Of a stretch of DNA of 32,063 nucleotides, positions 4,804-21,338 are shown in pieces (position 1 is the stretch's first letter; every line of letters starts with the position of its first letter). The stretch covers positions 1 to 32,063 of IMG/VR virus record IMGVR_UViG_3300034140_000015. The stretch is one strand, 5' to 3'. Origin of the DNA: a virus. Below the pieces are notes generated by a model. It was not told where the DNA came from. It did no database searches and saw only the letters and a list, made by a program, of their open reading frames with translations. The translations under genes and the position numbers were made by a program.

Positions 4804-4845
4804 GTCTCCAATATCGGAAGACCGGGAGAGCTGCTAAACGACAGG
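4804..4845 (-). promoter_or_regulatory. 42-nt conserved upstream element, copy A
   Basis: Read on the minus strand, the block CCTGTCGTTTA begins at 4845, CTTCCGATATTG follows, and the ATG of the next gene comes exactly 42 nt after the first C. The whole 46-bp intergenic gap is essentially this element. Copies B and D match both blocks at identical spacing; copy C matches the first block. A promoter whose start site is at or near the ATG is the favoured reading; an RNA-level control site is the alternative. Confidence 0.65.
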
Positions 4846-4849
4846 AATA

Positions 4850-5719
4850 TTAAGCGTTATTCTTCGATTTAAATTCGGTCCACTGGCGCTGCGCCTTATT
4901 AAGATAGTCCAAAACGAAAAAAGCATTGGTGTATTTGAGCTGTGCCGAGGTTCCGAATTTAGGACCGATAAGGTCGGTATAGATATCCATCCAGCTGCCG
5001 TCTGCTCCGGGCTCATCGTCAGATGTTACCGGTACAGGCTTACCATTTTCGTCAAGCTGCTTTAATGGCTCGGGGAACACATCAGGCCTTGCGTCTTTTG
5101 CTTGTTTAATGGCAATGGATATCCATTGAAAAATTGCCATCTTCTCGTTTCGCTTCATATCCTGAAGCATTTCAACCCGTTTTGGAATAAGGTTCTCGTT
5201 AAACGGTTCCCGCTTGTCTCCGGTGTAGTTCGGCGAGTTTTCGTCAGACTCCGGATCCACAGGCCTGTAAACGGTGGCAATCATTTTATCCAGCCATTCT
5301 TCATCACCCTGCGAGCGGTAGAAGTAACTGAGGTAAGTATCGAGGAAACACCATTCACCAAAACCAATATTAGAAAGGTCCGGAGCTGCCGGTAGAAGTT
5401 CTCCAGCTTTAAGCTTTAGTTTAGGGAAGAAGTTTTTTAGAGGCGGCTCAGTATCATAAAAGAATTTTGTGAGCTCCTTTTTTAGCTCATGCTTTTCTTC
5501 TGCAGTGAGGCCTGCTAGTATTGGCCAGTGTTTTTCAAATAATAGCGCAAGGAGACTTAATTTTATCCATTCAGGATCTGCTTTGGTAGTTACCTGGAGA
5601 CAAAAGATTGCTGCACCGAATTGGCCGGGCTGCATTTCATCCCAACTACCAGGTACTTCGATATCAAACTTCTTTCGCTTGTTTCTTTCAGTTTTATAAA
5701 GTCCGGATATCTTTCTCAT
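4850..5719 (-). CDS. Phage protein of unknown function, 289 aa
   Basis: A mainly helical, charged, soluble protein without signal peptide. It contains a WDEMQPGQF segment near residue 25 and a long helical centre (KHELKKELTKFFY). I do not recognise the family with confidence. Its ATG overlaps the stop of the small membrane-protein gene (ATGA, 5716-5719), so the two are translationally coupled, and its stop lies just before copy A of the 42-nt element. Genes in this position in Bacteroidota prophages are often virion-associated, but lysis or assembly roles are equally possible. Confidence 0.45.
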   Translation of the reverse strand: MRKISGLYKTERNKRKKFDIEVPGSWDEMQPGQFGAAIFCLQVTTKADPEWIKLSLLALLFEKHWPILAGLTAEEKHELKKELTKFFYDTEPPLKNFFPKLKLKAGELLPAAPDLSNIGFGEWCFLDTYLSYFYRSQGDEEWLDKMIATVYRPVDPESDENSPNYTGDKREPFNENLIPKRVEMLQDMKRNEKMAIFQWISIAIKQAKDARPDVFPEPLKQLDENGKPVPVTSDDEPGADGSWMDIYTDLIGPKFGTSAQLKYTNAFFVLDYLNKAQRQWTEFKSKNNA

Positions 5720-5889
5720 TCTTCTTGTGAACGGTCAATAATATTCATACCAGCATAAAGCAAAACCGCCATTAGAACCATGTAAAGTTGGGCCACAGTA
5801 ACAGCGTCGGTTCCGAAGGAAAAATAGATAGGAATACATACAAGTACATCAACCACGATTAGCCATAAACATAAGTTTATTCTGCCCAT
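5716..5889 (-). CDS. Small two-TM membrane protein, holin candidate
   Basis: A 57-residue frame (start MGRINLCLWLIVVDVLV) with two hydrophobic segments, roughly residues 5-23 and 32-51, and a short charged tail ending DRSQEE. It starts two bases after the stop of the 236-aa membrane protein and overlaps the next start as ATGA, which strongly suggests a real gene. Size, two-segment topology and position three genes after the amidase are typical of a holin. No sequence family is recognised, so the holin call rests on topology and context. Confidence 0.55.
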   Translation of the reverse strand: MGRINLCLWLIVVDVLVCIPIYFSFGTDAVTVAQLYMVLMAVLLYAGMNIIDRSQEE

Positions 5890-5891
5890 GA

Positions 5892-6602
5892 TTAAAAAGT
5901 TATTAGGTTATAACTCAGCCCGGCACCTATCATAGGCCTGATGTTATTAGTCAACGGATCGTAATAATAGCCCACATGTAATCCTAGGCCAATGCGCCTG
6001 CGGTCAACATCCGGTAAAACGGTGAAGCTTCGAACTCCATCAATTAGCATATTAGGATCCTTGGCGGAAAAATCCCGATACGAATGCTTTTTGCCCAGCA
6101 ACCATTTTTTCTTATCGTATTTAGTAATATCAAACTGAGCGTTGTACTTATAATTAAGCACAGTATCCCTTTCAGCAACAGAAGCCTGCAGATATGGGCC
6201 ATTAAAGTGCGTTACCTTTCCTTTAATTGAATCGTGGCTTACGGTACCTTTTAATTTCCCCTCCAGTGTGGCAATTATTCTCGTGCTTTCGGTAATATCA
6301 TTTTTAGCAAGTTTTAATGCAGTAGCCAAGCTGTCAACATAAGCAGGGCGAATAGCTGTGCCGTCTTTTATTTGCCTCCGGGTAACCGGGTTTTCCTCCA
6401 GTACGGCATGGTTACTTTCATTAGCATCCACGTACCTGCCAACGATTACAGCGAGTTCCTGCTCACGGTTATCGGTTGTTTGCTGGGCTTTTTTAAGCCT
6501 GTTGTTCTCTTTAGCAAGACAGATGGTGATTACTCCAAGGGCTACCAGGAGCACACACACTCCCATTAATAAGCCGAAAATTGTTGTGTTAGTGGACTTC
6601 AT
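5892..6602 (-). CDS. Inner-membrane anchored coiled-coil protein, lysis cassette (spanin-like?)
   Basis: A 236-residue protein. Residues about 8-29 form one hydrophobic anchor (IFGLLMGVCVLLVALGVITI), followed by a charged helical stretch with coiled-coil character to about residue 115 (KENNRLKKAQQ; DSLATALKLAKNDI), then a mixed region, and a C-terminus whose last strands (GLGLHVGYYY; MIGAGLSYNLITF) resemble outer-membrane beta-strands ending in Phe. It lies between another anchored protein and the holin candidate, downstream of the amidase. A protein spanning from inner to outer membrane would fit a spanin-type function, but this topology differs from classical lipoprotein-based spanins. I recall similar genes beside lysis genes in Bacteroidota phages but do not name a family. 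Confidence 0.5.
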   Translation of the reverse strand: MKSTNTTIFGLLMGVCVLLVALGVITICLAKENNRLKKAQQTTDNREQELAVIVGRYVDANESNHAVLEENPVTRRQIKDGTAIRPAYVDSLATALKLAKNDITESTRIIATLEGKLKGTVSHDSIKGKVTHFNGPYLQASVAERDTVLNYKYNAQFDITKYDKKKWLLGKKHSYRDFSAKDPNMLIDGVRSFTVLPDVDRRRIGLGLHVGYYYDPLTNNIRPMIGAGLSYNLITF

Positions 6603-6610
6603 GACATTGG

Positions 6611-6910
6611 TTATTTATTTAGTTCTTTTAAAAGCTCTTTCGTTGGTGTTTCCGTTTTAGATCTTACCAGACTGTCGGTGCGCGCCATTGCTGTATTTTG
6701 ATCGCCAATCACTTGATTTTTCTGCAGCACCATAATGGAAAGGTTCCATATCTTATCATTAAGCTGCTTTTTTTCGTCTTCACATTTACCACAGTCGCTG
6801 CCCTGATGAGCCATAAGGTATACACATAAGCCTATCAGGAATGAGCATAAAACAGCCATTGGATATTTAGCAATGTCTTTAAGGCTATATGGCTGTTTAA
6901 TTTCCATCAC
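6611..6910 (-). CDS. Small single-TM protein of lysis cassette
   Basis: A 99-residue protein with one hydrophobic segment at about residues 16-35 (YPMAVLCSFLIGLCVYLMAH), a CGKC pair near residue 40, and a charged helical tail with possible coiled coil (CEDEKKQLNDKIWNL). It starts two bases after the amidase stop. A second Met follows the first, so the exact start is uncertain. Context suggests a lysis accessory: a holin-like, pinholin or spanin-partner role is possible. No family is recognised. Confidence 0.5.
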   Translation of the reverse strand: MMEIKQPYSLKDIAKYPMAVLCSFLIGLCVYLMAHQGSDCGKCEDEKKQLNDKIWNLSIMVLQKNQVIGDQNTAMARTDSLVRSKTETPTKELLKELNK

Positions 6911-6912
6911 GA

Positions 6913-7416
6913 TTACAATCCTAATTCCTGAAGCCAGGCATTTACACTAAAAGAAGGGCAGGCCTTCATCCATTCTCCGGGAGATATGATGCCGTCGCGA
7001 TTTTTATCCTCACTAAAATCCCGATGCCCTAAAATTTTCGCACCAGGGAACATTTTGTGAAACTTTCTTACCAAAACCTCCATAGTTTGCTTTTGAACAG
7101 CGGTTCTGTTATCAATAGGCTTACCAGTTATATTGATAGGATCGCCCTTTGCGTTTTTTCCTTTAAGGACTTCCACGCCACCGATATATGAGATATTAAT
7201 TGAATGGGCATTATGTCCGGCCACGCCATTTGAAAGTTTCTCAATGGGTACCAGGTGATGGGCGATGCCATCAGGAGAAATTAAGAAATGATACCCTGGT
7301 GTTTTCCAGCCACAGCCTTTAGGTACATCTGCTTTCCAATAGTTTACAATATCCTTTACGGTTTGATATTGAGGCCCGGCCGTACAATGAAGTACGATGT
7401 ATTTTATCTCTCTCAT
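6913..7416 (-). CDS. N-acetylmuramoyl-L-alanine amidase (phage endolysin, amidase_2 type)
   Basis: A 167-residue enzyme predicted to cut the amide bond between muramic acid and the peptide stem of peptidoglycan at lysis. Zinc ligands typical of T7-lysozyme-like amidases are visible: His10 in IVLHCTA, His131 in GHRDFS, and Cys153 in KACPSF, with Lys151 and Tyr42 at the usual catalytic positions. An EF-hand-like loop (DKNRDGIISPGEW) sits between the second and third ligands, as in many Bacteroidota phage amidases. There is no signal peptide, so export should need a holin, fitting the small membrane proteins just downstream. It starts three bases after the preceding stop, within the virion operon. 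Confidence 0.9.
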   Translation of the reverse strand: MREIKYIVLHCTAGPQYQTVKDIVNYWKADVPKGCGWKTPGYHFLISPDGIAHHLVPIEKLSNGVAGHNAHSINISYIGGVEVLKGKNAKGDPINITGKPIDNRTAVQKQTMEVLVRKFHKMFPGAKILGHRDFSEDKNRDGIISPGEWMKACPSFSVNAWLQELGL

Positions 7417-7419
7417 CTT

Positions 7420-8418
7420 TTACCAAATAAAAATTCGTTTTTCTTCACCGTTATCGAAGTTCAGCCGCTTGCGGTTAGTACCGGCATCAGCAAAGGCATC
7501 GAAATCGGCGGGGTTTGCTTTTATAAAATCGGTAGCCTCTTGCATCCAGTTACGGGCATCGCCAATTAGCGAGGACATTGTAGAATTAAGTTCAGACTCC
7601 TTCGGCGCCCGGGTTTCATCCATGTTGTCGGTAGTGCCCGAAAACTTGACTTTCAGCGTACCTGATGACATATCGATTAAGCGTTCCTGTAATGCTTTTG
7701 CAACCGTGAATAGCGCAATCGCAGGCTTTAAATACTCCTCCAAAAGTTTCTTCAGGTTTCCGTTTATAGAACCGGCTTTATCATCCAGCTTCAGCTTATC
7801 GAATAGTGCTGCACCAATCGTTTTTTTAATCTCGAAAGTTTCAACCCGGTTCATACAGTACTGGATGAGGTGGAACAGGTACCGGCTGTTATTAATGTTG
7901 TAATGAGCGCTGAAGTCGGTAGCCGATCGCAAAAAGAATTGCTGATAGGTTGCATATACCGGATCCGTTGCCCATTGAGCGAACGAGCCTTTCTCAACTT
8001 CGAGATAGGTCAAAAGAGAATCGATTGTCCTGTGGCCGATATCGCCCAGAGAATCAAACACCTGGTTTGTCCTCCATTGAGAAGCGGGAGCCATGTTGTC
8101 GTTTTTAACGACTTGGATCCCATTTACACCTATCTGCACCGAAAGAACCGGCAGCGCGTGTAAGATGCTCAGGTTGGCTATTACTTCCTGGCAATATTCA
8201 AGTACTTTCTGAACTTTCGCGTCGGTTATTTCTGAAGTGTTTTTCCCAGCTGTAGAATAGGCCTCTTCCAGGGTACCAAGAAAAGTAAAGCCCAGTACTG
8301 GCTCCAAATAATTTCGCTCAGCAAGCCTCATGTATGGAAGAAGTGTTTCCATGCTGCTGGTAGCATTCACGGCAACATACTTCTGAACTTCGTCGATGGT
8401 GTTAATCAGCTTTGACAT
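7420..8418 (-). CDS. DUF6712-like phage protein (connector candidate)
   Basis: A protein of 332 residues if started at the ATG at 8418, which begins MSKLINTIDEVQKYV one base after the portal-like gene's stop. A longer frame to 8448 would overlap that gene and is less likely. It is mostly helical, with segments such as SMETLLPYMRLAERNYLEPVLG and a long helical middle. It resembles a protein that commonly follows the portal gene in Bacteroidota phages and is catalogued, as I recall, as DUF6712. Function is unknown; its place after the portal suggests an adaptor or head-completion role. Confidence 0.6.
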   Translation of the reverse strand: MSKLINTIDEVQKYVAVNATSSMETLLPYMRLAERNYLEPVLGFTFLGTLEEAYSTAGKNTSEITDAKVQKVLEYCQEVIANLSILHALPVLSVQIGVNGIQVVKNDNMAPASQWRTNQVFDSLGDIGHRTIDSLLTYLEVEKGSFAQWATDPVYATYQQFFLRSATDFSAHYNINNSRYLFHLIQYCMNRVETFEIKKTIGAALFDKLKLDDKAGSINGNLKKLLEEYLKPAIALFTVAKALQERLIDMSSGTLKVKFSGTTDNMDETRAPKESELNSTMSSLIGDARNWMQEATDFIKANPADFDAFADAGTNRKRLNFDNGEEKRIFIW

Positions 8419-8419
8419 A

Positions 8420-9784
8420 TTAATCGAGTTTTTTAGCTGTACCGGCACCGGTATCGAGCGTAGTTAATATTTCATCCATGGTAGCTATCCTTGCCTTCGG
8501 ATCATATCCGTTATAGAGCTTTACGAACTTGAAGACGGTGTTTAGAATATTGCGATCGGCGCCCATCAGCGAGCGTGTCTTGATGTGGCTTTCGCGGATA
8601 TTGGATCCGCCGTTATTGTCGCCACCCGTGTAAGCTCCGGAAGAGCTGCCTAATCCGGTTTCAGCCGGGTTGATCAACATCGAGAATAATATCTCAGCGT
8701 TAGCTGCAGCAGCATCAGGCAAATAGGCCTCATTCTTCATTTTGTCATCAATTACCGTAATCTTGAATTCACCCATGGCTTTATTTGCGCCTTGGGTCTG
8801 GCTACGGTAAAAGGTCATGATAGCTTTTTGAGCGTTTTCTGCACCGGTTAAGCTTTCCTCCAACTCAGTATAGAAGGCATCGATAGCATCATTTTGAACA
8901 TCATCACCCAATTGCTCCCATTTCGGAAACTTCCATTCCCAATACTCCAGCGGTACCTGAATGTGATATTTCAGACTCATTTGATTTTCAAAGAGCGCTT
9001 TCTTGAATTTTGGGATGGAATTGGAAATTTCCATGTATCCATTATTGCGTGAGCTGTCCCAAAATGCCAGCGAGTAATAGTCGCGCCTGGCGTCTGGCCA
9101 GCGAAGCGGCAGCAGGTATTTATAAGATTGTTTATCTAATCTGATTTCTTCAACCTGAGCAGCAAAATGTATCGGATCGATAACCGGTATTTTCTCGCAA
9201 TCAACCTCTTTCGGGTTTTCAGCCCAGTTGGCTGAAACATAAGCGTGTTTTATTCTTCCTTTATCTGCAGGAGCAAAGCGAACTTTACTGGCTTTTTGAT
9301 AGCTAATGCTGTGCACCTTATTCTTCATGCCATCAAACAGGATTTCAGCAAAGCCCATCGAGAGAATAGAATAATCTTGAGTTTGCGCCAGGCGAACGAT
9401 GTCGTAATTGGTGCGGCTCTGGATCAGATCCCAGTCTTCAATATCGAGATACTCGCGGAGCTGCCGGTTCTGCTCGTCGAAACCTTTAAACAAGTAGGTA
9501 AAATTTTCCTGACCGTAGATCATCTTGGTGAGGTAGTGCAGGCCTGCGCGGCCGACAGTGCTTTTCTCAACCATATTTAGCACCAGGTCCGGAAAGTCAT
9601 TGTTAATTCCCCAGGGCACGAAGAAGGTTTTACCTTCCTCTTCTTTTTTAGAAGTGGAAGAATTGTGCTGCGATTTTAGCGGGGCGCCACCGGTACCAGT
9701 ACTGGTGACAAGTAGAGAGCCTCCAGTTTTAGTAACCATGGCCGGAAAGCCATTGGTGGATTTATCAATTTTTACATTACTCAC
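8420..9784 (-). CDS. Portal-like protein
   Basis: A 454-residue protein with features of Bacteroidota phage portals: a Gly/Ser-rich N-terminus followed by a PWGINNDFP segment near residue 57, a helical middle, and a C-terminal acidic/Gly-rich stretch (GGDNNGGSNIRESHIK) that precedes a long helix. It would form the dodecameric ring through which terminase packages DNA. The large terminase gene lies upstream, but the accessory block intervenes. It overlaps the previous gene's stop by four bases and is followed after one base by the DUF6712-like gene. The portal call depends on context and fold-like features; sequence similarity to classical portals is weak by eye. Confidence 0.65.
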   Translation of the reverse strand: MSNVKIDKSTNGFPAMVTKTGGSLLVTSTGTGGAPLKSQHNSSTSKKEEEGKTFFVPWGINNDFPDLVLNMVEKSTVGRAGLHYLTKMIYGQENFTYLFKGFDEQNRQLREYLDIEDWDLIQSRTNYDIVRLAQTQDYSILSMGFAEILFDGMKNKVHSISYQKASKVRFAPADKGRIKHAYVSANWAENPKEVDCEKIPVIDPIHFAAQVEEIRLDKQSYKYLLPLRWPDARRDYYSLAFWDSSRNNGYMEISNSIPKFKKALFENQMSLKYHIQVPLEYWEWKFPKWEQLGDDVQNDAIDAFYTELEESLTGAENAQKAIMTFYRSQTQGANKAMGEFKITVIDDKMKNEAYLPDAAAANAEILFSMLINPAETGLGSSSGAYTGGDNNGGSNIRESHIKTRSLMGADRNILNTVFKFVKLYNGYDPKARIATMDEILTTLDTGAGTAKKLD

Positions 9785-10050
9785 CAGTAGATCTCCTGTC
9801 CGTTAATTTTGAAAATAAGTCGTTCGTGAACTGCTATATGCCGGCCGGTCTCATGATCATATATGCCAACCATGTATTTGTACCCAGGATGATTCCTTAG
9901 GCCGTGCTTTTGCGCCCGGGCGAGCTTGAATATTTCGCCTCCGGATTTCTTATCCCGATTGCAGGTGCCGAATTCAATTGAAACGGTTTTAGGAGACTCT
10001 CCAAAAACTGCCTGATTCAAAATTTCGATTCCTTCTTTCAGCGACAACAT
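9781..10050 (-). CDS. Small protein of unknown function heading the portal module
   Basis: An 89-residue soluble protein with a basic centre (RAQKHGLRNHPGYKYM) and a beta-rich C-terminus (HIAVHERLIFKINGQEIYW). Its stop overlaps the portal-like start as ATGA, so it is co-translated with it. Its ATG is preceded at exactly 42 nt by copy B of the conserved element, making it the first gene of this module. No family is recognised. Confidence 0.5.
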   Translation of the reverse strand: MLSLKEGIEILNQAVFGESPKTVSIEFGTCNRDKKSGGEIFKLARAQKHGLRNHPGYKYMVGIYDHETGRHIAVHERLIFKINGQEIYW

Positions 10051-10092
10051 GGTGTCAATATCGGAAGGAGAGGAGGCGTGGTAAACGACAGG
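10051..10092 (-). promoter_or_regulatory. 42-nt conserved upstream element, copy B
   Basis: On the minus strand the CCTGTCGTTTA block begins at 10092 and CTTCCGATATTG ends five bases before the ATG at 10050. Length and both blocks equal copies A and D. It sits at the border between the accessory block and the portal module, so it may re-initiate late transcription downstream of that block. Confidence 0.65.
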
Positions 10093-10104
10093 TATTTAAG
10101 GCTT

Positions 10105-10124
10105 GACTAATAAGAATATTAGTC
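10105..10124. promoter_or_regulatory. Palindromic operator candidate between divergent genes
   Basis: A perfect inverted repeat, GACTAAT and ATTAGTC with a six-base spacer, lies between the minus-strand portal module and the plus-strand HTH gene. The word CTTGACTAA occurs at 10102-10110, overlapping the left arm, and again at 10142-10150, forty bases downstream. This arrangement suggests binding of a dimeric regulator, possibly the HTH protein encoded next door. Confidence 0.45.
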
Positions 10125-10155
10125 TAACATCGCCACGAAAACTTGACTAACAAAC

Positions 10156-10191
10156 AAAGTCCTTTAAATATAAAGAGATTTTGTATATTTG
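10156..10191 (+). promoter_or_regulatory. Promoter/operator of the accessory HTH gene
   Basis: The 20-mer AAAGTCCTTTAAATATAAAG at 10156-10175 is repeated exactly at 11910-11929. It is followed by TATATTTG at 10184-10191, a perfect match to the Bacteroidota minus-7 consensus TAnnTTTG. The second copy also precedes a TATATTT site. The minus-7 element ends only three bases before the ATG at 10195, so a leaderless message is possible. Confidence 0.55.
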
Positions 10192-10194
10192 AAT

Positions 10195-10503
10195 ATGACA
10201 ACGAAGGAAGCATTTGAAGAGCTGATCAGTCAGCGAGCCTGGTATAAGGATCTGGGACTATCGGAGAAAGCGGCATCATCGCTGAAGACCAATTTCAAGG
10301 CAGGAAAGGTGAGTATTGAGAAAATGGAAGAGCTGCTGGAGAAGTCCGGATTTTATTCTGTAGTGGTAGAGAAGCATTGGACAAAAACCAGATTTACGGG
10401 CACCGGTCCCATTTATTACATTGTAGATGGTATTTACCATGATGTAATTACGGAAGAGGTGATCGGAGATGAAGAGAATGGGTTTTATGAAAATAAAGAA
10501 TAA
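10195..10503 (+). CDS. Small HTH-like DNA-binding protein of accessory block
   Basis: A 102-residue protein. The helix pattern LGLSEKAASSLKTNFKAGKV then SIEKMEELLEKSGF at about residues 22-56 resembles a compact helix-turn-helix seen in small Bacteroidota phage regulators. The C-terminal half (VVEKHWTKTRF and an acidic tail) is not recognised. I take the ATG at 10195; an in-frame TTG at 10189 would fall inside the minus-7 element and is rejected. It runs opposite to the virion genes and starts a three-gene plus-strand set. It may regulate the two palindromic promoters that bracket the block. Confidence 0.5.
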   Translation: MTTKEAFEELISQRAWYKDLGLSEKAASSLKTNFKAGKVSIEKMEELLEKSGFYSVVVEKHWTKTRFTGTGPIYYIVDGIYHDVITEEVIGDEENGFYENKE

Positions 10504-10720
10504 AAAAAACTGGTATCAAATGGCTTTAGAAGCTAAAAAGGCAAAGCCAATGCCTCAGCAAGAATATTTTTACGATGAAGCCTGCTTATTAGATGAAAAG
10601 CCGTCAAAAGGCCTAAAAAAAATAATAGATGAAGCGATTGAAGCTGGGAAAATAAAAGAAAAAATATTCATTACTGAGATTATTGATATCGATCACGAAG
10701 AAGTAACACCTAACAATTAA
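10487..10720 (+). CDS. Small protein of unknown function, accessory block
   Basis: A 77-residue, Lys/Glu-rich protein if started at 10487 (MKIKNKKNWYQ); ATG codons at 10469 and 10478 are in frame and would add a few residues. All starts overlap the end of the HTH gene. The sequence is mainly helical with an acidic C-terminus (EIIDIDHEEVTPNN). The stop is one base before the next ATG, so these two are probably coupled. No family is recognised; an antitoxin-like or other small accessory role cannot be shown. Confidence 0.45.
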   Translation: MKIKNKKNWYQMALEAKKAKPMPQQEYFYDEACLLDEKPSKGLKKIIDEAIEAGKIKEKIFITEIIDIDHEEVTPNN

Positions 10721-10721
10721 A

Positions 10722-10994
10722 ATGAGATTTGAAGAATTTACATCAAGAGTAAGACAGTATACTAGTCTACAAGACTTCACCGAAAACCAACATTTATTAG
10801 AAGGAGTTGACAACGCTTATTACGACGCATACTTACACTGCCTGGTTTCAGGGTCTTCTATAAAACCCGCGTTTAAAGCGTTAGATACGCTAATCAGGAT
10901 ATCAGGCCAAGTTGCGCTGTCTCCGGAACACGTTTTAGATTTACTTCCTGATTTTAGGGAATTGATAGGAATTTTTGACGCGAGGCTTAAGTAG
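10722..10994 (+). CDS. Small helical protein of unknown function, accessory block
   Basis: A 90-residue, apparently helical soluble protein (MRFEEFTSRVRQYTSLQDF to IGIFDARLK). It starts one base after the previous stop and is followed closely by a hairpin plus T-run at 11010-11040, marking the end of the plus-strand accessory unit. No motif or family is recognised. Confidence 0.45.
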   Translation: MRFEEFTSRVRQYTSLQDFTENQHLLEGVDNAYYDAYLHCLVSGSSIKPAFKALDTLIRISGQVALSPEHVLDLLPDFRELIGIFDARLK

Positions 10995-11207
10995 CCCCAT
11001 TCTTTTGTTACTTTTCTTTTGTTGGCAAAGAAAAGTTTTTACGCGGCTAACGACCTCCTTCAGGGCGTTAGCCGATTTTCATGCCTGTGCCGCCCAAGTG
11101 TCTAATCCCGGCGGCGGCATGGTGCATTTTCAGGGGTTTTCTTTAAAGCCTAAACCATCTCAAAAGCACTTCTTCAAAATGCAGCATAAAGGCGTCACTA
11201 TAGTTTT
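10995..11207. repeat. Host-type intergenic repeat block with two hairpins
   Basis: This gene-free stretch begins with CATTCTTTTGTTACTTTTC, a sequence I recall as a recurrent intergenic element in Sphingobacteriaceae genomes. An inverted repeat, ACTTTTCTTT and AAAGAAAAGT (11010-11019 and 11027-11036), is followed by a second, CGGCTAACG and CGTTAGCCG (11044-11052 and 11066-11074), and then GC-rich sequence. It suggests that this block was acquired from, or shared with, a host chromosome. A plus-strand open frame here is considered spurious. Confidence 0.5.
11010..11040 (+). terminator. Terminator of accessory plus-strand unit
   Basis: A perfect ten-base-pair stem (ACTTTTCTTT with AAAGAAAAGT) with a seven-base loop is followed by a run of T. 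It lies 15 bases after the stop of the last plus-strand accessory gene. Confidence 0.6.
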
Positions 11208-11336
11208 TTAATTATCGTACACGTTCAAGAAATTTTCCATTTCTACAACGGCTCTGTCTGGGTTGTTCAGGATCATATCTTCCGCAAAACCATCAAAATA
11301 TAAGTCATCAATAAATTCTATAAATAATTCGTACAT
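11208..11336 (-). CDS. 42-aa acidic microprotein, accessory block
   Basis: A frame of 42 codons, MYELFIEFIDDLYFDGFAED then MILNNPDRAVVEMENFLNVYDN, rich in acidic and aromatic residues. It is supported by a 19-nt leader (TAACATTTTAAAAGGTAAA) nearly identical to the leader of the next gene upstream (one difference, R at one site), which includes an AAGG purine stretch. It is separated from that gene by a terminator at 11365-11399. Function is unknown; acidic microproteins of phages sometimes inhibit host enzymes or defence, but nothing here shows that. Confidence 0.5.
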   Translation of the reverse strand: MYELFIEFIDDLYFDGFAEDMILNNPDRAVVEMENFLNVYDN

Positions 11337-11364
11337 TGCTTTACCTTTTAAAATGTTAAGAATA

Positions 11365-11399
11365 AAAAGCCCCTTGTACCGCAAATACTTGGGGCTTTT
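11365..11399 (-). terminator. Intrinsic terminator after the 149-aa gene
   Basis: AAAAGCCCC (11365-11373) pairs with GGGGCTTTT (11391-11399), and on the minus strand the stem is followed by a T-run. It lies just downstream of the gene ending at 11407. Confidence 0.75.
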
Positions 11400-11406
11400 G
11401 CTTTAA

Positions 11407-11856: not shown

Positions 11857-11897
11857 TTTACCTTCTAAAATGTTAGTGCTTTATTGCCTAACTCCTA

Positions 11898-11934: not shown

Positions 11935-11940
11935 TTTGAA

Positions 11941-14616: not shown

Positions 14617-15193
14617 CGACGATCGTTTTAATCCAGTTAAATGAAAAGTCTGCTGATTCCCGGGAGCAGATGATAACCCCGGCTTCTTTGCGCGGATTCT
14701 TAGTGAAGTTGGCAGAGCCAACAACCAGGAAAGAAATGTCCGGAGAAACAATGGAAAGAACTTTTGCATGGCAATGCGTAAGTTTTAGGTTTTTAAGCGT
14801 AGCGATAGCTTGCTGGTAGATGTGAGGCTTCCGGTTTCGGATGCCTACATCGAGCACGGCATAGAGATCAATGATTTGCCCCTGCTGTACCCATTCATTC
14901 ATTCGAGTGATGCCAATTTCAGAAATAGACCAGGTAGTGAAGCCGACCAGAGCCGGTCCAGATATCTGAAGCAAATACTCCATCAGTTCATAGTTACTCC
15001 AGCTGCCATCAGAAAAAAATAGCCGGTTATCTCCGGACTTCATCTTGGGAATAAATTCTTCTATAGACTTAAAAGATTCTAAACGGGCGCCATTAAAGAC
15101 TCCAGGTATATCGAAGCTGGCAGTCATTACTACATCAACTACTTCTCCAGGCTTAGAAAGCTGATCGATATCGGAGTTGAAAAATAAACTCAT
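14600..15193 (-). CDS. Phospholipase D-like domain protein
   Basis: A 197-residue protein with one PLD/HKD-like half: His142-Ala-Lys144 in THCHAKVLS, then GSANFT at 159-164 and a Glu170 as in PLDc_2 nucleases. The Asp expected five residues after the lysine is replaced by Val149, so activity may be altered. PLD-fold proteins in phages can be DNA or RNA endonucleases, often working as dimers to make a complete site. It sits just before the terminase genes, so a role in DNA end processing or packaging is a possibility. It overlaps its neighbours by four and 17 bases. Confidence 0.65.
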   Translation of the reverse strand: MSLFFNSDIDQLSKPGEVVDVVMTASFDIPGVFNGARLESFKSIEEFIPKMKSGDNRLFFSDGSWSNYELMEYLLQISGPALVGFTTWSISEIGITRMNEWVQQGQIIDLYAVLDVGIRNRKPHIYQQAIATLKNLKLTHCHAKVLSIVSPDISFLVVGSANFTKNPRKEAGVIICSRESADFSFNWIKTIVDGSSS

Positions 15194-15888
15194 TCGTTCA
15201 TCCTCCTGTTAATTTCCTCCAGGCGCTGCTGCCGGTCAGCAATCCGGGTTTGAATCTCAAAGTATTTAGCAGAGCCTTCTTCGGCATCCTTCAGGCGTTT
15301 ATTGTCTTTGGTTAGATAAGTCGGGATATTCTTGGCCTCAGTGAGCAGCTCCCTGATGGTGAGCTCGGCCACCGGCTTCAATTCTTTACTAACGGGAGCA
15401 GGCTCAGGCGTAACGGATCCGGTGTTAAGGAATGCCTGCACCTTGGCCATTAGCGCCCGGTTGTCATCAAAATCATTCAACAACTGCAGTTGCATCTGAA
15501 GTCGCTGCGCTCGGGAGTCGGTTACCGGTATGCGAGCAAATAACCACTTCGCGCGGTTGAAATGATTTTGGGCTTTAGTGCGGATATCCTTCAGCTCGGG
15601 CGGGAGCTTGGAGTACTCGGTATCGGAAACACCGGTACCACCTTTATTTTCTTTTTGAAACGAATTGAGATCCGGAATAAGAATCTTCGTTTCGGAAACA
15701 GGCGATGTATTGGCAATTGCTTTAAGAGCATTTTCCAGATAAGAGAAGTGATAGCTGCTCCCCTGGTGGCCGGCATTGATAATCGTTTTGGTTACGATAT
15801 TATTGCCATACTGCTCATAAAGCAGTTTGCCGTGATGATAAGTGCGGTTGGGTTCAGAAAGCCATTGTAATACTGGAGCAATTGCCAT
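15190..15888 (-). CDS. Phage protein of unknown function heading the terminase module
   Basis: A 232-residue protein with an N-terminal conserved-looking segment (VLQWLSEPNRTYHHGKLLYEQYG), a charged middle and a C-terminal coiled coil from about residue 170 (RLKDAEEGSAKYFEIQTRIADRQQ). I recall related proteins just before terminase genes in Bacteroidota phages, without an assigned function. Its ATG is preceded at exactly 42 nt by copy C of the conserved element, and it overlaps the PLD-like gene as ATGA. It is likely the first gene of the terminase unit. Confidence 0.55.
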   Translation of the reverse strand: MAIAPVLQWLSEPNRTYHHGKLLYEQYGNNIVTKTIINAGHQGSSYHFSYLENALKAIANTSPVSETKILIPDLNSFQKENKGGTGVSDTEYSKLPPELKDIRTKAQNHFNRAKWLFARIPVTDSRAQRLQMQLQLLNDFDDNRALMAKVQAFLNTGSVTPEPAPVSKELKPVAELTIRELLTEAKNIPTYLTKDNKRLKDAEEGSAKYFEIQTRIADRQQRLEEINRRMNE

Positions 15889-15930
15889 ACTCCTAATTTA
15901 CGGGAGGGCAATTGCCTGCTAAACGACAGG
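15889..15930 (-). promoter_or_regulatory. 42-nt conserved upstream element, copy C (diverged)
   Basis: CCTGTCGTTTA begins at 15930, again 42 nt before the ATG, but the proximal half differs: TAAATT replaces the GATATT of the other copies at the same place, and an AGGAG sequence lies just before the ATG. GAGGGCAATTGCC within it equals part of the palindrome at 12091. The retained spacing argues that the distal block and position matter most. Confidence 0.55.
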
Positions 15931-15935
15931 AAGAG

Positions 15936-16334
15936 TTATAGCTGGTTTACCTTGATGTATGCTCCAAGCTGGATAACATATTTTGAATAGATTTCCTTTG
16001 TTTCTTTCTCAGGGTCGAAGAGGAGAATTTTTTCTATCATCCAGTCTTCTTTGTAAATTGGATAATATTTATGGAATAAAACAACAGACATTTCATAACT
16101 GGGAACAAACTTTATTCCTTCATAAACTAAAGATTTCGTATAATCTTCCAGGCTCGATATTTGATATTTTTGCCTGAGGCCTTGAAAAAACATATCAATA
16201 ATAAGCTGAGGGGCGGAGATAATAACATTATCTTCTCTCGAGCATTCGTGAAGTAATTTAGGATGTGCATTGAAAATAAGATCCTCAATCATCTCAACTA
16301 CTAACCCACGGACTTCGATAAGATTCATTTCCAT
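15936..16334 (-). CDS. Phage protein of unknown function, 132 aa
   Basis: A 132-residue mixed alpha/beta soluble protein. A segment PSYEMSVVLFHKYYPIYKED near residue 78 looks like a conserved core, and the C-terminus is IQLGAYIKVNQL. It overlaps the upstream small gene by ten bases. It lies between the virion proteins and the terminase module. No family is recognised; a structural or assembly role is only inferred. Confidence 0.5.
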   Translation of the reverse strand: MEMNLIEVRGLVVEMIEDLIFNAHPKLLHECSREDNVIISAPQLIIDMFFQGLRQKYQISSLEDYTKSLVYEGIKFVPSYEMSVVLFHKYYPIYKEDWMIEKILLFDPEKETKEIYSKYVIQLGAYIKVNQL

Positions 16335-16600
16335 TTCGCCAAATAATAATACTCACCATTATGCTCGTTCCGATCCTTCTCGATCCGCATGGCGTGTAGT
16401 GCCAGTATCATATCCTCGTAAACATACACCTGCCCGGGGAAAGCTTTATTGAAGATGACGCAAATCCCCTCCAACGTTTCAATAATCTCAGCATCCTGCC
16501 AGTCCCGGGCCGGAGCGATTTCATTCGAGAACAGATCTACTATCTGCGGCCAGCGCGGAGCGTTCTCTTTTTTCGGTTTTTCGTCTTCGTCATCAAACAT
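16325..16600 (-). CDS. Small phage protein of unknown function, 91 aa
   Basis: A 91-residue protein with an acidic/Lys-rich N-terminus (MFDDEDEKPKKENAPRWPQI) and a mixed fold (IIETLEGICVIFNKAF). A 15-codon frame (MDVTVQEQPLPFLYV, 16593-16640) overlaps its start by eight bases in another phase, so translation may be coupled to a leader, or the true protein may begin upstream through a frameshift. The upstream DNA forms a large structured inverted repeat. Function unknown. Confidence 0.5.
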   Translation of the reverse strand: MFDDEDEKPKKENAPRWPQIVDLFSNEIAPARDWQDAEIIETLEGICVIFNKAFPGQVYVYEDMILALHAMRIEKDRNEHNGEYYYLAKWK

Positions 16601-16640
16601 AAAGAAACGGCAAGGGCTGCTCCTGAACAGTCACGTCCAT
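16593..16640 (-). CDS. Possible leader microORF
   Basis: Fifteen codons, MDVTVQEQPLPFLYV, start inside the left arm of a large inverted repeat and stop eight bases into the next gene. The overlap resembles translational coupling. It could instead be the true N-terminus of the 91-aa protein separated by a plus-one shift, or chance. Confidence 0.3.
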   Translation of the reverse strand: MDVTVQEQPLPFLYV

Positions 16641-16731
16641 CGGCGGCTTTCCCCCGAACTTGTCGGGTTTATAAACACGCCCGCCCCTTACCGTTATACC
16701 GGTATGGCGGACGTGACTAATATTCAGGAGC
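16619..16731. repeat. Large structured inverted repeat in the 16.6-16.8 kb gap
   Basis: The arm GCTCCTGAACAGTCACGTCC (16619-16638) pairs with 16709-16731, whose complement has the same 9- and 10-base blocks with a small internal bulge. The 70-bp interior contains two further hairpins, CCCGA/TCGGG (16653-16667) and TACCG/CGGTA (16689-16704), giving a branched fold. It lies between a terminator and the start of the 91-aa gene, so it would form its 5' leader if transcribed. Confidence 0.6.
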
Positions 16732-16742
16732 GTTTCAAAAAT

Positions 16743-16771
16743 AAAAAAACCCTGCTCATTTCTGGCAGGGT
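16743..16771 (-). terminator. Intrinsic terminator in the virion operon
   Basis: ACCCTGC (16749-16755) pairs with GCAGGGT (16765-16771), with a T-run following on the minus strand. It lies 29 bases after the gene ending at 16800 and probably ends the capsid transcript or sets its ratio to the genes below. Confidence 0.75.
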
Positions 16772-16799
16772 GTTAGATAATTAAACGATATGGATTAAA

Positions 16800-17021
16800 T
16801 TAGTCAGCTTTTATGGCTGGCTGATTTTCTTTTGATACTTGCGTATCTTTTTTTTTAAGGTACTGGAAACCTGCTTCAACCAGGTTAGCAGCGTCTTTGG
16901 CCGTTAAAGCGCAAAGGTCTACGTTTCCAAATTGAGAACATTTTACAATGCCAGGCGTCGTTCCTACCAGCTCGAAGTTTTTTGCAACTTCATCCGATAA
17001 TTTTAATTCTTTTTTATCCAT
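16800..17021 (-). CDS. Small virion-operon protein, 73 aa
   Basis: A 73-residue protein with a conserved-looking middle (GIVKCSQFGNVDLCALTAKDAANLVEAGF) and a Lys-rich tail. This FGxVDLxxLTxxxAxxLV pattern I recall from small Bacteroidota phage proteins beside capsid or tail-tube genes. It starts 15 bases after the stop of the 183-aa gene, with a good purine-rich site (AGGAGG) a few bases before ATG. Role unknown; a capsid accessory or chaperone is possible. Confidence 0.55.
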   Translation of the reverse strand: MDKKELKLSDEVAKNFELVGTTPGIVKCSQFGNVDLCALTAKDAANLVEAGFQYLKKKDTQVSKENQPAIKAD

Positions 17022-17036
17022 GATATGGCCTCCTTA

Positions 17037-17588
17037 TTAAACTGCTACAATTAACAAACTAGCCACACCACCCACAGGTTTGTAGATCGGCGGCGCAGTT
17101 TCCTGTGCAGATTTAAACATTAATTTAGTTGCACGGCCGTCAGAGATTGCTTTCCCGGAAGTACCGTCGCTATCATCTTTGTAAGCAGGGTCGTTTTTGC
17201 TTCCCAATACTCTCCATTTGCCATTTTTCTCCAATACAAGGAAAACCATGGGAAGGTTATCGGTAAAAGCATCGAAACCAAGGAAAGCAGCCTCGTTACC
17301 AGGGAAAGAAATATCCATAGTGTTTTCGCGGCCTTTGCCGTCACGCGGACCGGCAAGTTTCGATTTTAATTCTCCGGTTTCTAATGTGCAATAAAGCTCA
17401 TTAAATTTTTTACCGGCTTTCATGGTGATGGCTGTTAGTATTTCAACCAGCTCATTAAAGGTTGTTGCAACTTCGGGATCTCCGAGTTCTGGAAATGTTG
17501 CTATGTCTTCTGCAAGAGCATACAACACCCTGTTTATACCAGCTGCATTTCTGCGGCCAGCTGGCCAGGTGAGATTTGCTAAATTCAT
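17037..17588 (-). CDS. Putative virion structural protein (tail-tube or decoration candidate)
   Basis: A 183-residue beta-rich protein (MNLANLTWPAGRRNAAG at the start; FLGFDAFTDNLPMVFLVLEKNGKWRVLG in the middle). No signal peptide or membrane segment. The composition, length and position just after the capsid genes fit a major tail-tube or head-decoration protein. A DDSDGTSGKAISDGR loop is Gly/Asp-rich like loops in tube proteins. No specific family is recognised. Confidence 0.5.
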   Translation of the reverse strand: MNLANLTWPAGRRNAAGINRVLYALAEDIATFPELGDPEVATTFNELVEILTAITMKAGKKFNELYCTLETGELKSKLAGPRDGKGRENTMDISFPGNEAAFLGFDAFTDNLPMVFLVLEKNGKWRVLGSKNDPAYKDDSDGTSGKAISDGRATKLMFKSAQETAPPIYKPVGGVASLLIVAV

Positions 17589-17625
17589 AGGTAGATGAAT
17601 TAAATGGATTAAATATTTTTGTTAT

Positions 17626-18174
17626 TTATTTGGCCGGGCGAATGTTACCAGACTCCTTATCTATCAGCATTTTAAGGAAAGCTTCATCCTTAGCCGCGTC
17701 TTCAGCTTTTACAACACCATCTCTGGTGTGCATATCTGCGCGGCTCAACAGGTATTTTACGCCGTCAACAGAAACAAGGATATCCTCCTGGTTATTTACT
17801 GTAGACTGAGCGGCCACCTGAGCGCTTAAGGATTCGACCATAGAAAGAGCTTCTTCCCTTTGTTCTGTCAGAGAAGCTAAAAGAGTGTTTGCTGTAGAAT
17901 TCTCGGAGCTCAGCCTTTCAATCTCAGTTTTTGAAGCCGATATTGATTCTGCAAGTCCACTTTTCAATGTTTGTACAGATTCTTTAAGCTCAGCGATTAG
18001 CGTCAAGTTTTTTTCATTTGCTCCAGCAAGCTTTGATATCTCCTTGTTAGCGGATTCCAAAGCTACAACCGTGTATTCAGTTAAGAATTCAGCGATTATA
18101 TTTTCAAAAGCCTCGGGAGCTGCTCCCCCGATTAGTACCACTAAACCTTTAGCGGTTAAATCTTTTTTTGCCAT
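17626..18174 (-). CDS. Coiled-coil virion/assembly protein
   Basis: A 182-residue protein. Residues about 35-120 are a coiled-coil region rich in Ser, Glu, Ala and Lys (SKTEIERLSSENSTANTLLA; LTEQREEALSMVESLSAQV), followed by a short C-terminal domain (DILVSVDGVKYLLSRADMHT). It lies directly after the capsid gene. Scaffolding, capsid-associated or tail-assembly roles fit such a fold and place. Function is not shown. Confidence 0.5.
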   Translation of the reverse strand: MAKKDLTAKGLVVLIGGAAPEAFENIIAEFLTEYTVVALESANKEISKLAGANEKNLTLIAELKESVQTLKSGLAESISASKTEIERLSSENSTANTLLASLTEQREEALSMVESLSAQVAAQSTVNNQEDILVSVDGVKYLLSRADMHTRDGVVKAEDAAKDEAFLKMLIDKESGNIRPAK

Positions 18175-18227
18175 TATAAAAAGTATTAGTCCCGGACTAG
18201 CCGGGACAGGATTAATAATTTAGTTAC

Positions 18228-19343
18228 TTACACTATCGCAACGTTGTTACGATAAACAAAACCGTCATTCCAGAAACCAACTCCTTTGTAGAAATCAGTC
18301 ATTGCAAGAACCTCACGTTTCGCCTCTTCAATTTTGAAGATCTTATCGTTACCTGGTTTCTTCGTTCCGCAAATACGGTTAACCGCAGGAGTAGTCCAGA
18401 TGGTGGTTGATGTGCCATGAGAAGCGCGACCAGCAATCTTCACTTTCGTGTCGATGATGGTGGTTAAATCATCAACCTGGCTGTAGTTAATGTTATATTT
18501 TTCGCGCATACCAGTTTTGAAGCGAAGCTCCAAATTTTTCGACATAAAGATTTTGTCCAACTCATTACGGTGAAGTTCCGGAATACTGTAAAACATATCT
18601 TCGATGTATTTTACAAAAAGAACAGCATCTGCAGGTACAGCGCCAACTGCCACTTGCTGAATTGCAGCTCCTTTTAATTGCTCACGAATACCCAACATTG
18701 AAGTTCCTGCAGCTGTAGCAGTTCCAGGAACAATTACTCCGGGTACACCAAAGAAGAATTCGTTTTTCTCCAAATCTTCCTGCAATTGCGCAAGCGCCAA
18801 CTCCTCAAGCAGGTAACGGATCAACGGCCATTCTTTGCGATCCAAACCATTTGACGCAAGGAAACCTAACCAGCTCTCTTCAACTTCATCCGGATAAAAA
18901 GAAAGGTCGACTTTCATTTTATACAAGTCAATTATTTGAGGTGTGAAAGTAGGATCGCCGATCGGTGTGAAAGCTTTCTGGAAACGCTGTAACACGCGCG
19001 AAATAGTTGCGTTTGCTAGTTCGAGTCTCGTTGCCTCAGTAATCCGGCTGTTAAAGTCTGCTTCCGTTTCCGATTTCTGGAAAAACTTCTTCAGTAAAGC
19101 TTTTTTGTTGTCTTCGCCGCTGTAGTAGGCACCGAACTCGGTTAAGATATCGGTGATCGTAAGCACGGTAGCGCTCAACATGGCAGTAGGACTGCCGGCC
19201 GGAAGAAACGTAGCTGAATAAGCTAAGCATCCAAAAGTAACTGCTAAATCTGAGTGTCCGGCAGCCTGGGCCGAAAACGCGCCAATTAAGAATAAAAGTA
19301 GCAGTGATACTTTTACCAAGGTTAGAAGGGATTGAGTTTTCAT
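18228..19343 (-). CDS. Probable major capsid protein with signal-peptide-like N-terminus
   Basis: A 371-residue protein immediately after the S49-protease gene, in the usual place of the major capsid protein. The region after residue 90 has a helix and beta pattern compatible with an HK97-type shell protein (IGDPTFTPQIIDLYKMKVDLSFYPDEVE; a long C-terminal domain to the end). The N-terminus is odd: positives at residues 2 and 11, a hydrophobic core at 12-23, then SAQA|AGH, a textbook signal-peptidase site after residue 27. It may be removed by the phage protease or represent a true export-like feature. Confidence is good for capsid by context, not by direct family match. Confidence 0.65.
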   Translation of the reverse strand: MKTQSLLTLVKVSLLLLFLIGAFSAQAAGHSDLAVTFGCLAYSATFLPAGSPTAMLSATVLTITDILTEFGAYYSGEDNKKALLKKFFQKSETEADFNSRITEATRLELANATISRVLQRFQKAFTPIGDPTFTPQIIDLYKMKVDLSFYPDEVEESWLGFLASNGLDRKEWPLIRYLLEELALAQLQEDLEKNEFFFGVPGVIVPGTATAAGTSMLGIREQLKGAAIQQVAVGAVPADAVLFVKYIEDMFYSIPELHRNELDKIFMSKNLELRFKTGMREKYNINYSQVDDLTTIIDTKVKIAGRASHGTSTTIWTTPAVNRICGTKKPGNDKIFKIEEAKREVLAMTDFYKGVGFWNDGFVYRNNVAIV

Positions 19344-19371
19344 AGATGATGTAGGGTATTTAAAAAGATTT

Positions 19372-20769
19372 TTATCCTGTTATGCTGTCGGCTTTTCTGT
19401 TATGCGGTAGCGCATCCATTATAGCCTGAGCATTAGTTTGTGATTCTGGGAGTGCGGTATCACCGGCAGCGCCTTCGGAAGAGTTGTGGCTTCCACCAGG
19501 AAGAGCAGCCAAGCGAGTTTCAAGCTCAGCGATCGTAGCATTTGCAGTAGCCAGATCTGAAGTAGCAGTATCAAACTTTGCCTGTACATCGGCAAGAGAT
19601 CCGTTTAAAGTTTCCAAGGAAGTATTAGCAGTAGCCAATTCTTCAGTAAGGCGGGTTACATCGTTAGAGGCCTGCTCTGCAGACTCAAGAAATCCGGTTT
19701 CAACCAGGAGAGCTGTAGTAATGCCGGCATCTTTAAGATTTCCGTTTGCTTCCTGAATAAGGGCATCAACCTGATCTGGTTGAGCCGTAGCAAGTGCTAC
19801 AAGATTTTTAGTTTCAAAATTCATTTGGGAATTATTTTGGGTTATTGTAAGTGCACCAGGAGTGGTGGAAGTAGGGAATATCTTCCCTCCACGAATTTCG
19901 GCTATAGCATCATTCATTGATTTGATGCCGTCGATTAGGCCGATACGGATTGAATCTGAAGCATTGAAAACCTTACCGGTATTCCATTCATCAGACGTAA
20001 GTTTTGAACCTCTATTTTCAGCGAAAGCTGCTATAAAAGATTTTGCTAGTTCTGAAATTTCTTCAGTAATAAGTTTATCGTTTCCGTCGATAGAATTACG
20101 ATATGAAAGATTTTTGTCTTTAGAAGCTTCCGGATAGATTGATTTAACCTTATATCCTTGTTTTTCGAAGTATCCACGGTAATCTACAATTGTGGTGTAG
20201 GCTCCAATAGAACCAAAGCCAGCGTGTTTATTTGCGGCGTAAACGCGTTTATGGCCAGAAGCTATCCATGCTCCGGCGCTGTAAGCTCCGCCTTCAACCA
20301 GGGCGATAGTGTTTTTAGCTATGCCTTGTACATAGTCGGTAAATTGAGGAGTACCATCTGCCTGGCCACCGGGAGAATCAATAAATGAAATCATCCCTTC
20401 TATATTAGGAAGCGATATTAAATCATCAATCCAGCCCTGGCGTTTCACCATTCCAGGTTCACCGCAAGATCCGTTATATTTCATAACAGGTCCGATAACT
20501 GGAATTACCAAAACGCTGCCGGCGTCTATGCCTTTTTCGTTCAGCTCGTACTTCTCTTCTCTCCAGTTATAGATGTATGCCTGAACCTTTTTATTTTTAC
20601 TGTTAAGAACAAAAGGTCCTTCCATTTCACCACGGCCAGAGAAGAACTCCGAACCACTAAGCTTACCCTGAAGCATACCCAGAACTAAAGGCAGATGGCT
20701 CTCAGCAAATTGCTGGTCTATAAGCCAACCGCCGCGAAGTATTGCAGACAGAGTGTTGTTGTAGTTCAT
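19372..20769 (-). CDS. S49-family head maturation protease with scaffold-like C-terminus
   Basis: A 465-residue protein started at the ATG at 20769; a TTG six codons upstream is less likely. Residues about 80-300 are a SppA/ClpP-fold S49 peptidase: MISFIDSPGGQADG oxyanion segment, GGAYSAGAWIAS with Ser164, and Lys217 in ASKDK, 53 residues later as in single-domain SppA. It probably cleaves scaffold and capsid precursor during head maturation. The C-terminal part from about residue 316 is a coiled-coil, Ala/Thr/Leu-rich scaffold-like domain, with an internal in-frame ATG at 19824 (MNFETKNLV) that could give a separate 150-aa scaffold, as in lambda C/Nu3. Confidence 0.82.
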   Translation of the reverse strand: MNYNNTLSAILRGGWLIDQQFAESHLPLVLGMLQGKLSGSEFFSGRGEMEGPFVLNSKNKKVQAYIYNWREEKYELNEKGIDAGSVLVIPVIGPVMKYNGSCGEPGMVKRQGWIDDLISLPNIEGMISFIDSPGGQADGTPQFTDYVQGIAKNTIALVEGGAYSAGAWIASGHKRVYAANKHAGFGSIGAYTTIVDYRGYFEKQGYKVKSIYPEASKDKNLSYRNSIDGNDKLITEEISELAKSFIAAFAENRGSKLTSDEWNTGKVFNASDSIRIGLIDGIKSMNDAIAEIRGGKIFPTSTTPGALTITQNNSQMNFETKNLVALATAQPDQVDALIQEANGNLKDAGITTALLVETGFLESAEQASNDVTRLTEELATANTSLETLNGSLADVQAKFDTATSDLATANATIAELETRLAALPGGSHNSSEGAAGDTALPESQTNAQAIMDALPHNRKADSITG

Positions 20770-20816
20770 TGAGAACAATAATCGCAATTGCGTTTTACTG
20801 GCTAAACGACCGCTTT

Positions 20817-21296
20817 TTACAGTACCTCTTCCAGCGCTCTATGAAGCGCATTTCCAAAGAATTCTATGGCGTATCCTTTGCCAGAGTTTCGCTGATCACC
20901 GGAGTTGAAATTGGCCTTAAATTCCAATGGAAATGTAGGAGAACCTATTATTTTAATCTTTCCCCGGGTATCAGTAAGGCGAACGACAAAGTGCGTACTC
21001 TCCATTTCAAATAACAAATTGGTAAGCTCTGGCTTATCACCCGGTACCAGCCCTGCTACTTTCAAAATGAAATAAGTGCCATTGTTCGTTTTTTCCGGAC
21101 TATCGTTAAACTGGAGGGTTTGGTTTGTAGCATATCCCTGGTACCAAGATTTTCCGGCATGCAGCAGTATTTGGTTTCTTTTAACCGTGTTATTAATTAT
21201 TGCAGGGAAAGACAATATATCGTAATAGGGAATGAAATCAAATTTGAGATATCCGCCTCGGTTTCTTAATGGTATGGATGGGAAGTTGCTTTTCAT
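20817..21296 (-). CDS. Virion-module protein of unknown function, 159 aa
   Basis: A 159-residue beta-rich protein (YLKFDFIPYYDILSFPAI; LLHAGKSWYQGYATNQTLQF; FPLEFKANFNSGDQRNSGKG). I recall similar proteins in Bacteroidota prophage structural modules, with no firm role. Its ATG directly follows copy D of the 42-nt element, and its stop lies 47 bases before the protease start. It is likely the first gene of the capsid transcription unit and may be a head or tail completion protein. Confidence 0.55.
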   Translation of the reverse strand: MKSNFPSIPLRNRGGYLKFDFIPYYDILSFPAIINNTVKRNQILLHAGKSWYQGYATNQTLQFNDSPEKTNNGTYFILKVAGLVPGDKPELTNLLFEMESTHFVVRLTDTRGKIKIIGSPTFPLEFKANFNSGDQRNSGKGYAIEFFGNALHRALEEVL

Positions 21297-21338
21297 GTAA
21301 GCAATATCGGAAGGAGTAAAGAGCTGTTAAACGACAGG
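21297..21338 (-). promoter_or_regulatory. 42-nt conserved upstream element, copy D
   Basis: CCTGTCGTTTA begins at 21338 and CTTCCGATATTG ends five bases before the ATG at 21296, as in copies A and B. It is in a 108-bp gap whose other part holds no clear gene, and it stands at the head of the capsid module. Confidence 0.65.

Follow-up and report, generated by a model that had tools for sequence, protein, structure and literature searches.

Why should one short word stand at exactly the same distance from the start codons of four phage genes? The question is raised by a viral DNA of 32,063 bases (IMG/VR virus record IMGVR_UViG_3300034140_000015; this whole stretch is called the window below), in which the 11-mer CCTGTCGTTTA occurs four times, always on the minus strand and always beginning 42 nucleotides (nt) 5' of an ATG. 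The four genes, designated A to D, head the tail/fibre-side, portal, terminase, and protease/capsid blocks, respectively (Table 1). A preliminary description of this DNA had read the element as a phage-specific late promoter with transcription starting at the ATG, which would give leaderless mRNAs. This view was supported by sequence comparison with sixteen other phages and prophages, whose homologous late genes are preceded by such a bipartite element, and by the published register of the -7 promoter element of Bacteroidota. Judged from these comparisons, the element is real and strongly conserved and is a putative late promoter class of Bacteroidota siphophages.

An exact pattern scan of the window recovered the four copies that had been noted, and the genes behind them do head the capsid, terminase, portal, and fibre modules as described. 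Equally good copies at other positions, named in the preliminary description as an outcome that would speak against it, were not present: no further exact copy was found in the window, and a reversed control pattern gave no match. When up to two mismatches were allowed, 10 matches were observed against 8.2 expected, which is not rare, indicating that the signal comes from the exact matches at a constant distance. The second block was likewise found as reported. Element positions 26-37 read CTTCCGATATTG in copies A, B, and D; in copy C, positions 25-37 read CTCCCGTAAATTA, with TAAATT for GATATT (both at positions 31-36). In 200 simulated first-order Markov genomes, searched for any 11-mer at any single distance of 12-80 nt before the ATGs of one strand, the maximum number of same-distance copies was two, compared with four in the window.

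A protein-pattern search for close capsid or terminase relatives in viral_contigs found none. Relatives were found with a DNA pattern in which the 11-mer was combined with one more fixed base and a set distance to an ATG; this pattern was scanned against viral contigs and GTDB genomes. Most matches were chance matches; in addition, a clear group was obtained in which the match preceded homologues of the same four genes. The complete records of this group (G001, G002, G003, G005, G006, G007, and G008) were compared, and three further relatives (G009, G010, and G011) were reached via a 154-amino-acid (154-aa) protein described below. G007 is a prophage in a Sphingobacteriaceae metagenome-assembled genome, and G008 (L113) is a prophage of Pedobacter terrae DSM 17933 that is apparently the same phage as G002. 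Gene-by-gene comparison showed that the late region is conserved among the relatives, mostly with 28-92% identity.

A curated alignment was then made of 52 copies standing before the same genes in ten divergent phages including the window. With the A of the ATG taken as +1, all 52 copies aligned without a gap as TGTCGTTTA (-40 to -32), an invariant 19-nt spacer, and SAHHTTNG (-12 to -5). A -7 score of at least 4/5 was reached by every copy at a spacer of 19 and by at most 9 of the 52 at any other spacer. In about 420 kb of these genomes, TGTCGTTTA had 48 occurrences on the late strand against none on the opposite strand, and all 48 copies were located at late operons (one being a contig-end duplicate); the same box thus stands before several late operons and only there. 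The four copies outside the curated list, namely three at the protease gene and the contig-end duplicate, were each followed by the second block.

At genes A to D, a distance of 42 nt to the start codon is seen in 34 of 38 copies; for one of these, the start codon is a GTG. The distance of element C was 42 nt in all ten phages. Element D was present 41-42 nt before the homologous gene in eight of the nine relatives having gene D, whose N-terminus is kept from the ATG of the window onward. Furthermore, a fifth copy precedes the neck gene (E), which heads the neck/tape-measure operon, in 9/9 relatives whose record reaches that site; both blocks are kept in it, and it lies 56-69 nt from the ATG. 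The window record stops just short of this site. Several relatives also have a copy at the protease gene (P).

The second block was next compared with the promoters of the host phylum. In Flavobacterium johnsoniae, the -7 element consists of T-12, A-11, T-8, T-7, T-6, and G-5 with 4-5 nt to the transcription start, G is almost never found at -10 or -9, and a -33 motif is not evident (PMC6847099). With the A of the ATG as +1, the phage block has A-11 in 45, T-8 in 51, T-7 in all, and G-5 in 43 of the 52 curated copies, with a G at -10 in one copy and at -9 in none. The -33 TTTG would be expected around -35 to -33; TTT was found there in 52/52 copies, followed by A or T and never by G at -32. 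The -35/-10 wording of the preliminary description should be replaced by -33/-7, the terms used for the primary sigma factor of Bacteroidota hosts (TTTG and TAnnTTTG). The gap between the box and the start codon is 3-4 nt in nearly all A-D copies and 14-27 nt longer at the neck gene. From this register, the mRNAs of the four operons are probably leaderless, with a predicted start at the A of the ATG. Such mRNAs are rare in these hosts: leaders longer than 10 nt account for 87% in F. johnsoniae, leaders shorter than 10 nt for about 3.7% in Bacteroides thetaiotaomicron (PMC7366714), and leaderless mRNAs for 5.5% in Flavobacterium psychrophilum (PMC9723704).

The element was also found in more distant phages. 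Leef_1, Ingeline_1, and Mea-Yong924-1, which are about 30% related in terminase, carry the variant TGTCCTTTT, followed by 19 nt and the box, at the corresponding genes. Leef_1, whose host is a Polaribacter, has six copies, all on the late strand; the distance is exactly 42 nt for three of them, 44 nt for another, and 54 nt for the neck copy; the copies of Ingeline_1 lie 42, 42, 44, 61, and 72 nt from the ATG, and Mea-Yong924-1 has three copies at 41-43 nt. Four prophages (G076, G022, G068, and G077) were then picked solely by homology to the 154-aa protein, without use of the motif. The element was observed in all four, as TGTCCTTTC in G076 and G022, TGTCCTTTT in G068, and TGTCATTTC in G077, at homologous genes and mostly 41-44 nt from the ATG; the search accepted any five bases after TGTC and was therefore sensitive, not fully strict. 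As weaker evidence, inspection by eye of the Flavobacterium phages laban6-1 and 1H (L231 and L233; Duneviridae) suggested the variant boxes TGTCACAA and TGTCTTAAA upstream of late genes, at a similar distance from a -7-like box. Among 151 host-family genomes, the bipartite motif was multi-copy only in two already-known prophages and was at or below the reversed-control level in the rest.

Some observations on individual relatives may be added here. In G010 (L224-L226), the sequence of the element and gene A is duplicated, with one copy close to each contig end, which suggests terminal redundancy or an assembly overlap. Copies of CCTGTCGTTTA elsewhere in the host genome of G007 are without the -7 box. 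Mea-Yong924-1 (L230) is recorded as a Microcystis phage and has genes and late promoters of the Bacteroidota type, so that the bacterium it actually infects may be a member of the Bacteroidota living alongside the cyanobacterium.

Table 1 Features of the window discussed in the text.
Feature	Coordinates	Strand	Description
Gene A	4249..4803	-	184 aa; head of tail/fibre-side block
Element A	4804..4845	-	block 1 CCTGTCGTTTA 4835-4845; -7-like box GATATTGG 4808-4815; abuts ATG 4803
Gene B	9781..10050	-	89 aa; head of portal block
Element B	10051..10092	-	block 1 10082-10092; -7-like box GATATTGA 10055-10062; abuts ATG 10050
Small gene divergent from gene B	10189-10503	+	104 aa
Gene C	15190..15888	-	232 aa, conserved MAIA... 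start; head of terminase block
Inverted repeat, partner arm	15877-15886		ATGGCAATTGC; within first codons of gene C
Element C	15889..15930	-	block 1 15920-15930; -7-like box TAAATTAG 15893-15900; abuts ATG 15888
Inverted repeat, upstream arm	15907..15916	-	GGCAATTGCC
Gene D	20817..21296	-	159 aa; first gene of protease/capsid block
Element D	21297..21338	-	block 1 21328-21338; -7-like box GATATTGC 21301-21308; abuts ATG 21296
154-aa protein	21405..21869	-	directly upstream of element D; leading candidate for late activator
TGTAACA/TGTTACA array	21996-22215		upstream of 154-aa gene; 11 of the 13 window copies
LuxR/GerE-type regulator	30581..31123	-	PHROG 10300, Pfam GerE; near early operon head; second activator candidate

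Taken together, these findings make it very probable that the element is a phage late promoter used by the host RNA polymerase, which would give leaderless mRNAs at four operons and would need a phage activator; we infer the starts and the activator. In the proposed mechanism, the host enzyme would recognise block 2 as a weaker version of the housekeeping -7 box of Bacteroidota, whereas block 1, spanning the -33 region and its upstream flank, would be read wholly or partly by a phage-encoded activator produced before the late phase. At copies A-D, transcription would start at the first base of the ATG, give or take about one base, and the resulting leaderless mRNA would be translated, which would explain the fixed distance to the ATG. 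At the fifth copy, the same promoter would yield a short leader.

Several observations weigh against this reading. Three A-D copies lie at 41 nt and one at 46 nt, and at the protease gene the distance runs from 42 to about 74 nt. In the second block, two bases of the host consensus are missing from most copies: T-12 was found in 4/52 and T-6 in 17/52. Intrinsic terminators were not enriched in the 100 nt upstream of the copies (3/52 vs 7/400 random windows), and their role as general insulators was rejected on the same figures. Finally, both candidate regulators, the 154-aa protein and a LuxR/GerE-type protein, are present throughout the group, so that the activator is not singled out. In Mantel tests of block 1 against protein divergence, the portal protein, used as a neutral control, gave a rho of 0.67, the 154-aa protein 0.51, and the LuxR-type protein 0.29 (partial Mantel given portal, 0.17 and 0.03 for the two regulators, respectively); changes in block 1 thus follow the portal control better than either regulator.

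The scarcity of T-12 and T-6 makes it conceivable that the promoter serves an alternative or phage-supplied sigma-like factor, with the LuxR/GerE-type protein or another factor reading both blocks. The LuxR/GerE helix-turn-helix resembles sigma region 4, the Ingeline_1 LuxR-type protein has a weak match to a phage 'sigma factor' family (E 2.3e-4), and such a gene lies near the early-operon head wherever the record of a relative includes the early left end. However, A-11, T-8, T-7, G-5, and the lack of G at -10 and -9 obey the host rule, the distant Duneviridae and Helgolandviridae copies are nearer to TAnnTTTG than those of the core group, and no full sigma-factor match was found among the proteins examined. 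We therefore regard this explanation as unlikely.

Even less probable is the RNA-binding control site that the preliminary description had offered as its alternative, namely a translational operator, in which the 42 nt would be the 5' leader of mRNAs begun upstream and an RNA-binding protein or the ribosome would read the blocks near the AUG. The distance to the ATG is indeed fixed at copies A-D, and in hosts without Shine-Dalgarno signals, translation starts might be marked in other ways (PMC6847099). On the other hand, a start signal acting in the RNA should keep its place relative to the start codon, whereas a promoter need not do so. The neck copy keeps both blocks and their spacing at 56-69 nt from the ATG, and across the copies the inter-block spacer is invariant whereas the ATG distance varies; the conserved unit is therefore block 1, spacer, and block 2, which favours a promoter. 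A promoter is likewise suggested by block 2, which sits precisely in the reported -7 register, and by the confinement of the element to operon heads on a single strand, and no shared promoter-like sequence was visible further upstream of the four window copies from which such leaders could have begun. A chance repeat or a recently duplicated, functionless stretch can be dismissed: copies A, B, and D do resemble one another beyond the blocks, but the element is kept at homologous genes across many phages whose proteins are mostly 27-50% identical, the blocks were kept while the spacers diverged, and the Markov genomes never reached the observed number.

If the element is an activator-dependent late promoter, the 154-aa protein is the leading candidate for its activator, with about an even chance of being the right one. 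It is conserved in the whole group and was found in all named relatives. Its gene is the last before the first late promoter and has no late promoter of its own, and a C-terminal motif, ED-L---T---K--R, is invariant within the ten-phage group. An AlphaFold model was confident (predicted local distance difference test score, 85) and showed strand-helix-helix twice, followed by two helices. A fold search with this model gave no significant PDB match, and the viral library gave only the Leef_1 homologue (template modeling score, 0.82). The topology and weak matches to F-plasmid relaxosome proteins, which are not significant, hint at a tandem ribbon-helix-helix fold. Upstream of the gene lies a TGTAACA/TGTTACA array, which was also found in G007 (6 of its 10 copies at the same place) and not in the other relatives; it might be what is expected of a tightly regulated gene.

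The LuxR-type protein is a somewhat less probable candidate for the activator. Its gene is absent from the G003 and G009 records. Other prophages that seemingly lacked it had it further upstream, suggesting that G003 and G009 may be no more than truncated records. In the publication on Leef and Ingeline (PMC8776804), their LuxR genes come up solely in connection with quorum sensing or lifestyle, and promoters are not discussed. The 104-aa plus-strand protein was also considered as an activator and was rejected because it is missing in phages that carry the element (G011, Leef_1, Mea-Yong924-1, and Ingeline_1). The small gene encoding it, divergent from gene B, is conserved in most close relatives, where it forms a reversed gene within the late region.

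An additional feature was noted at gene C, where an inverted repeat occupies the spacer and start region and spans the predicted +1 of element C. Inverted repeats of 10-13 bp across the predicted +1 were found in 8/10 C copies, compared with repeats of at least 10 bp in 7/500 shuffles. Among the window and nine relatives, the arm position moves and the complementarity is retained. Similarly, 7/9 neck copies have hairpins of 8-16 bp across the predicted +1. The neck promoters of G002, G005, G006, and G009 (e.g. L194 near 14130; L203 near 17403) have a terminator-like hairpin whose upstream arm overlaps the promoter end and the predicted +1; in at least G002, G005, and G006, it is followed by a T-run right before the neck gene ATG. 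Since at both genes the upstream arm is located entirely or in part 5' of the predicted +1, only read-through RNA could fold into the complete hairpin. The hairpins may thus keep read-through transcripts from being used. Alternatively, the gene C repeat could be a palindromic DNA operator.

A wider picture can be put forward only tentatively, and as a whole it is doubtful: a promoter class shared by two or more families of Bacteroidota siphophages, an activator of a novel type represented by the 154-aa protein, late genes expressed only from locally started leaderless mRNAs, and inverted repeats, at the start of gene C and in the hairpin of the neck promoter, that silence or terminate read-through and spare the local starts. 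A search of the open literature on Flavobacterium, Bacteroides, and crAss-like phage late promoters and on Duneviridae and Helgolandviridae promoters gave no description of the element, and no late promoter of any Bacteroidota phage turned up in the literature searched. The motif would allow the late operons of Helgolandviridae, Duneviridae, and related prophages to be recognised from sequence, and two testable activators can be named. The operons would also be cases in which phages seemingly use leaderless mRNA routinely. Moreover, such promoters could supply inducible, phage-controlled expression tools for Bacteroidota, in which E. coli promoters fail.

Among known systems, the promoters of the Bacteroidota primary sigma factor (sigma-ABfr/sigma-A; -33 TTTG and -7 TAnnTTTG) share with the phage element the position of the box, the key bases A-11, T-8, T-7, and G-5, the lack of G at -10 and -9, and TTT at -35 to -33. 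Unlike them, the phage element has G or C for T-12, a relaxed T-6, TTTA for TTTG, an extra invariant TGTCG just upstream, and a predicted start on the ATG. The middle promoters of T4, which depend on a MotA box and sigma appropriation, are alike in that a host -10-type box is kept, a phage box replaces the -35 element, and the spacing is nearly fixed; their MotA box, TGCTTtA, is centred at -30 and lies 12 ± 1 bp from the -10 (PMC2988021). In contrast, TGTCGTTTA lies at -40 to -32 with a spacer of 19 instead of about 12, the -7 box is of the Bacteroidota type, the genes served are late structural genes, and no MotA or AsiA homologue was identified. The box position and the spacer set the element apart from the MotA/AsiA class. 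The late operons of Mu and P2 are dispersed and co-activated by a small phage activator (C and Ogr, respectively) encoded before the late block. The phage element resembles them in its few dispersed late operons and in the proposed small activator encoded before the late block, and differs in box sequences, activator families, and hosts; Mu and P2 late promoters are not known to be systematically leaderless. By analogy, the element would work like the activator-box promoters of T4 middle and Mu/P2 late genes, but it belongs to none of those systems.

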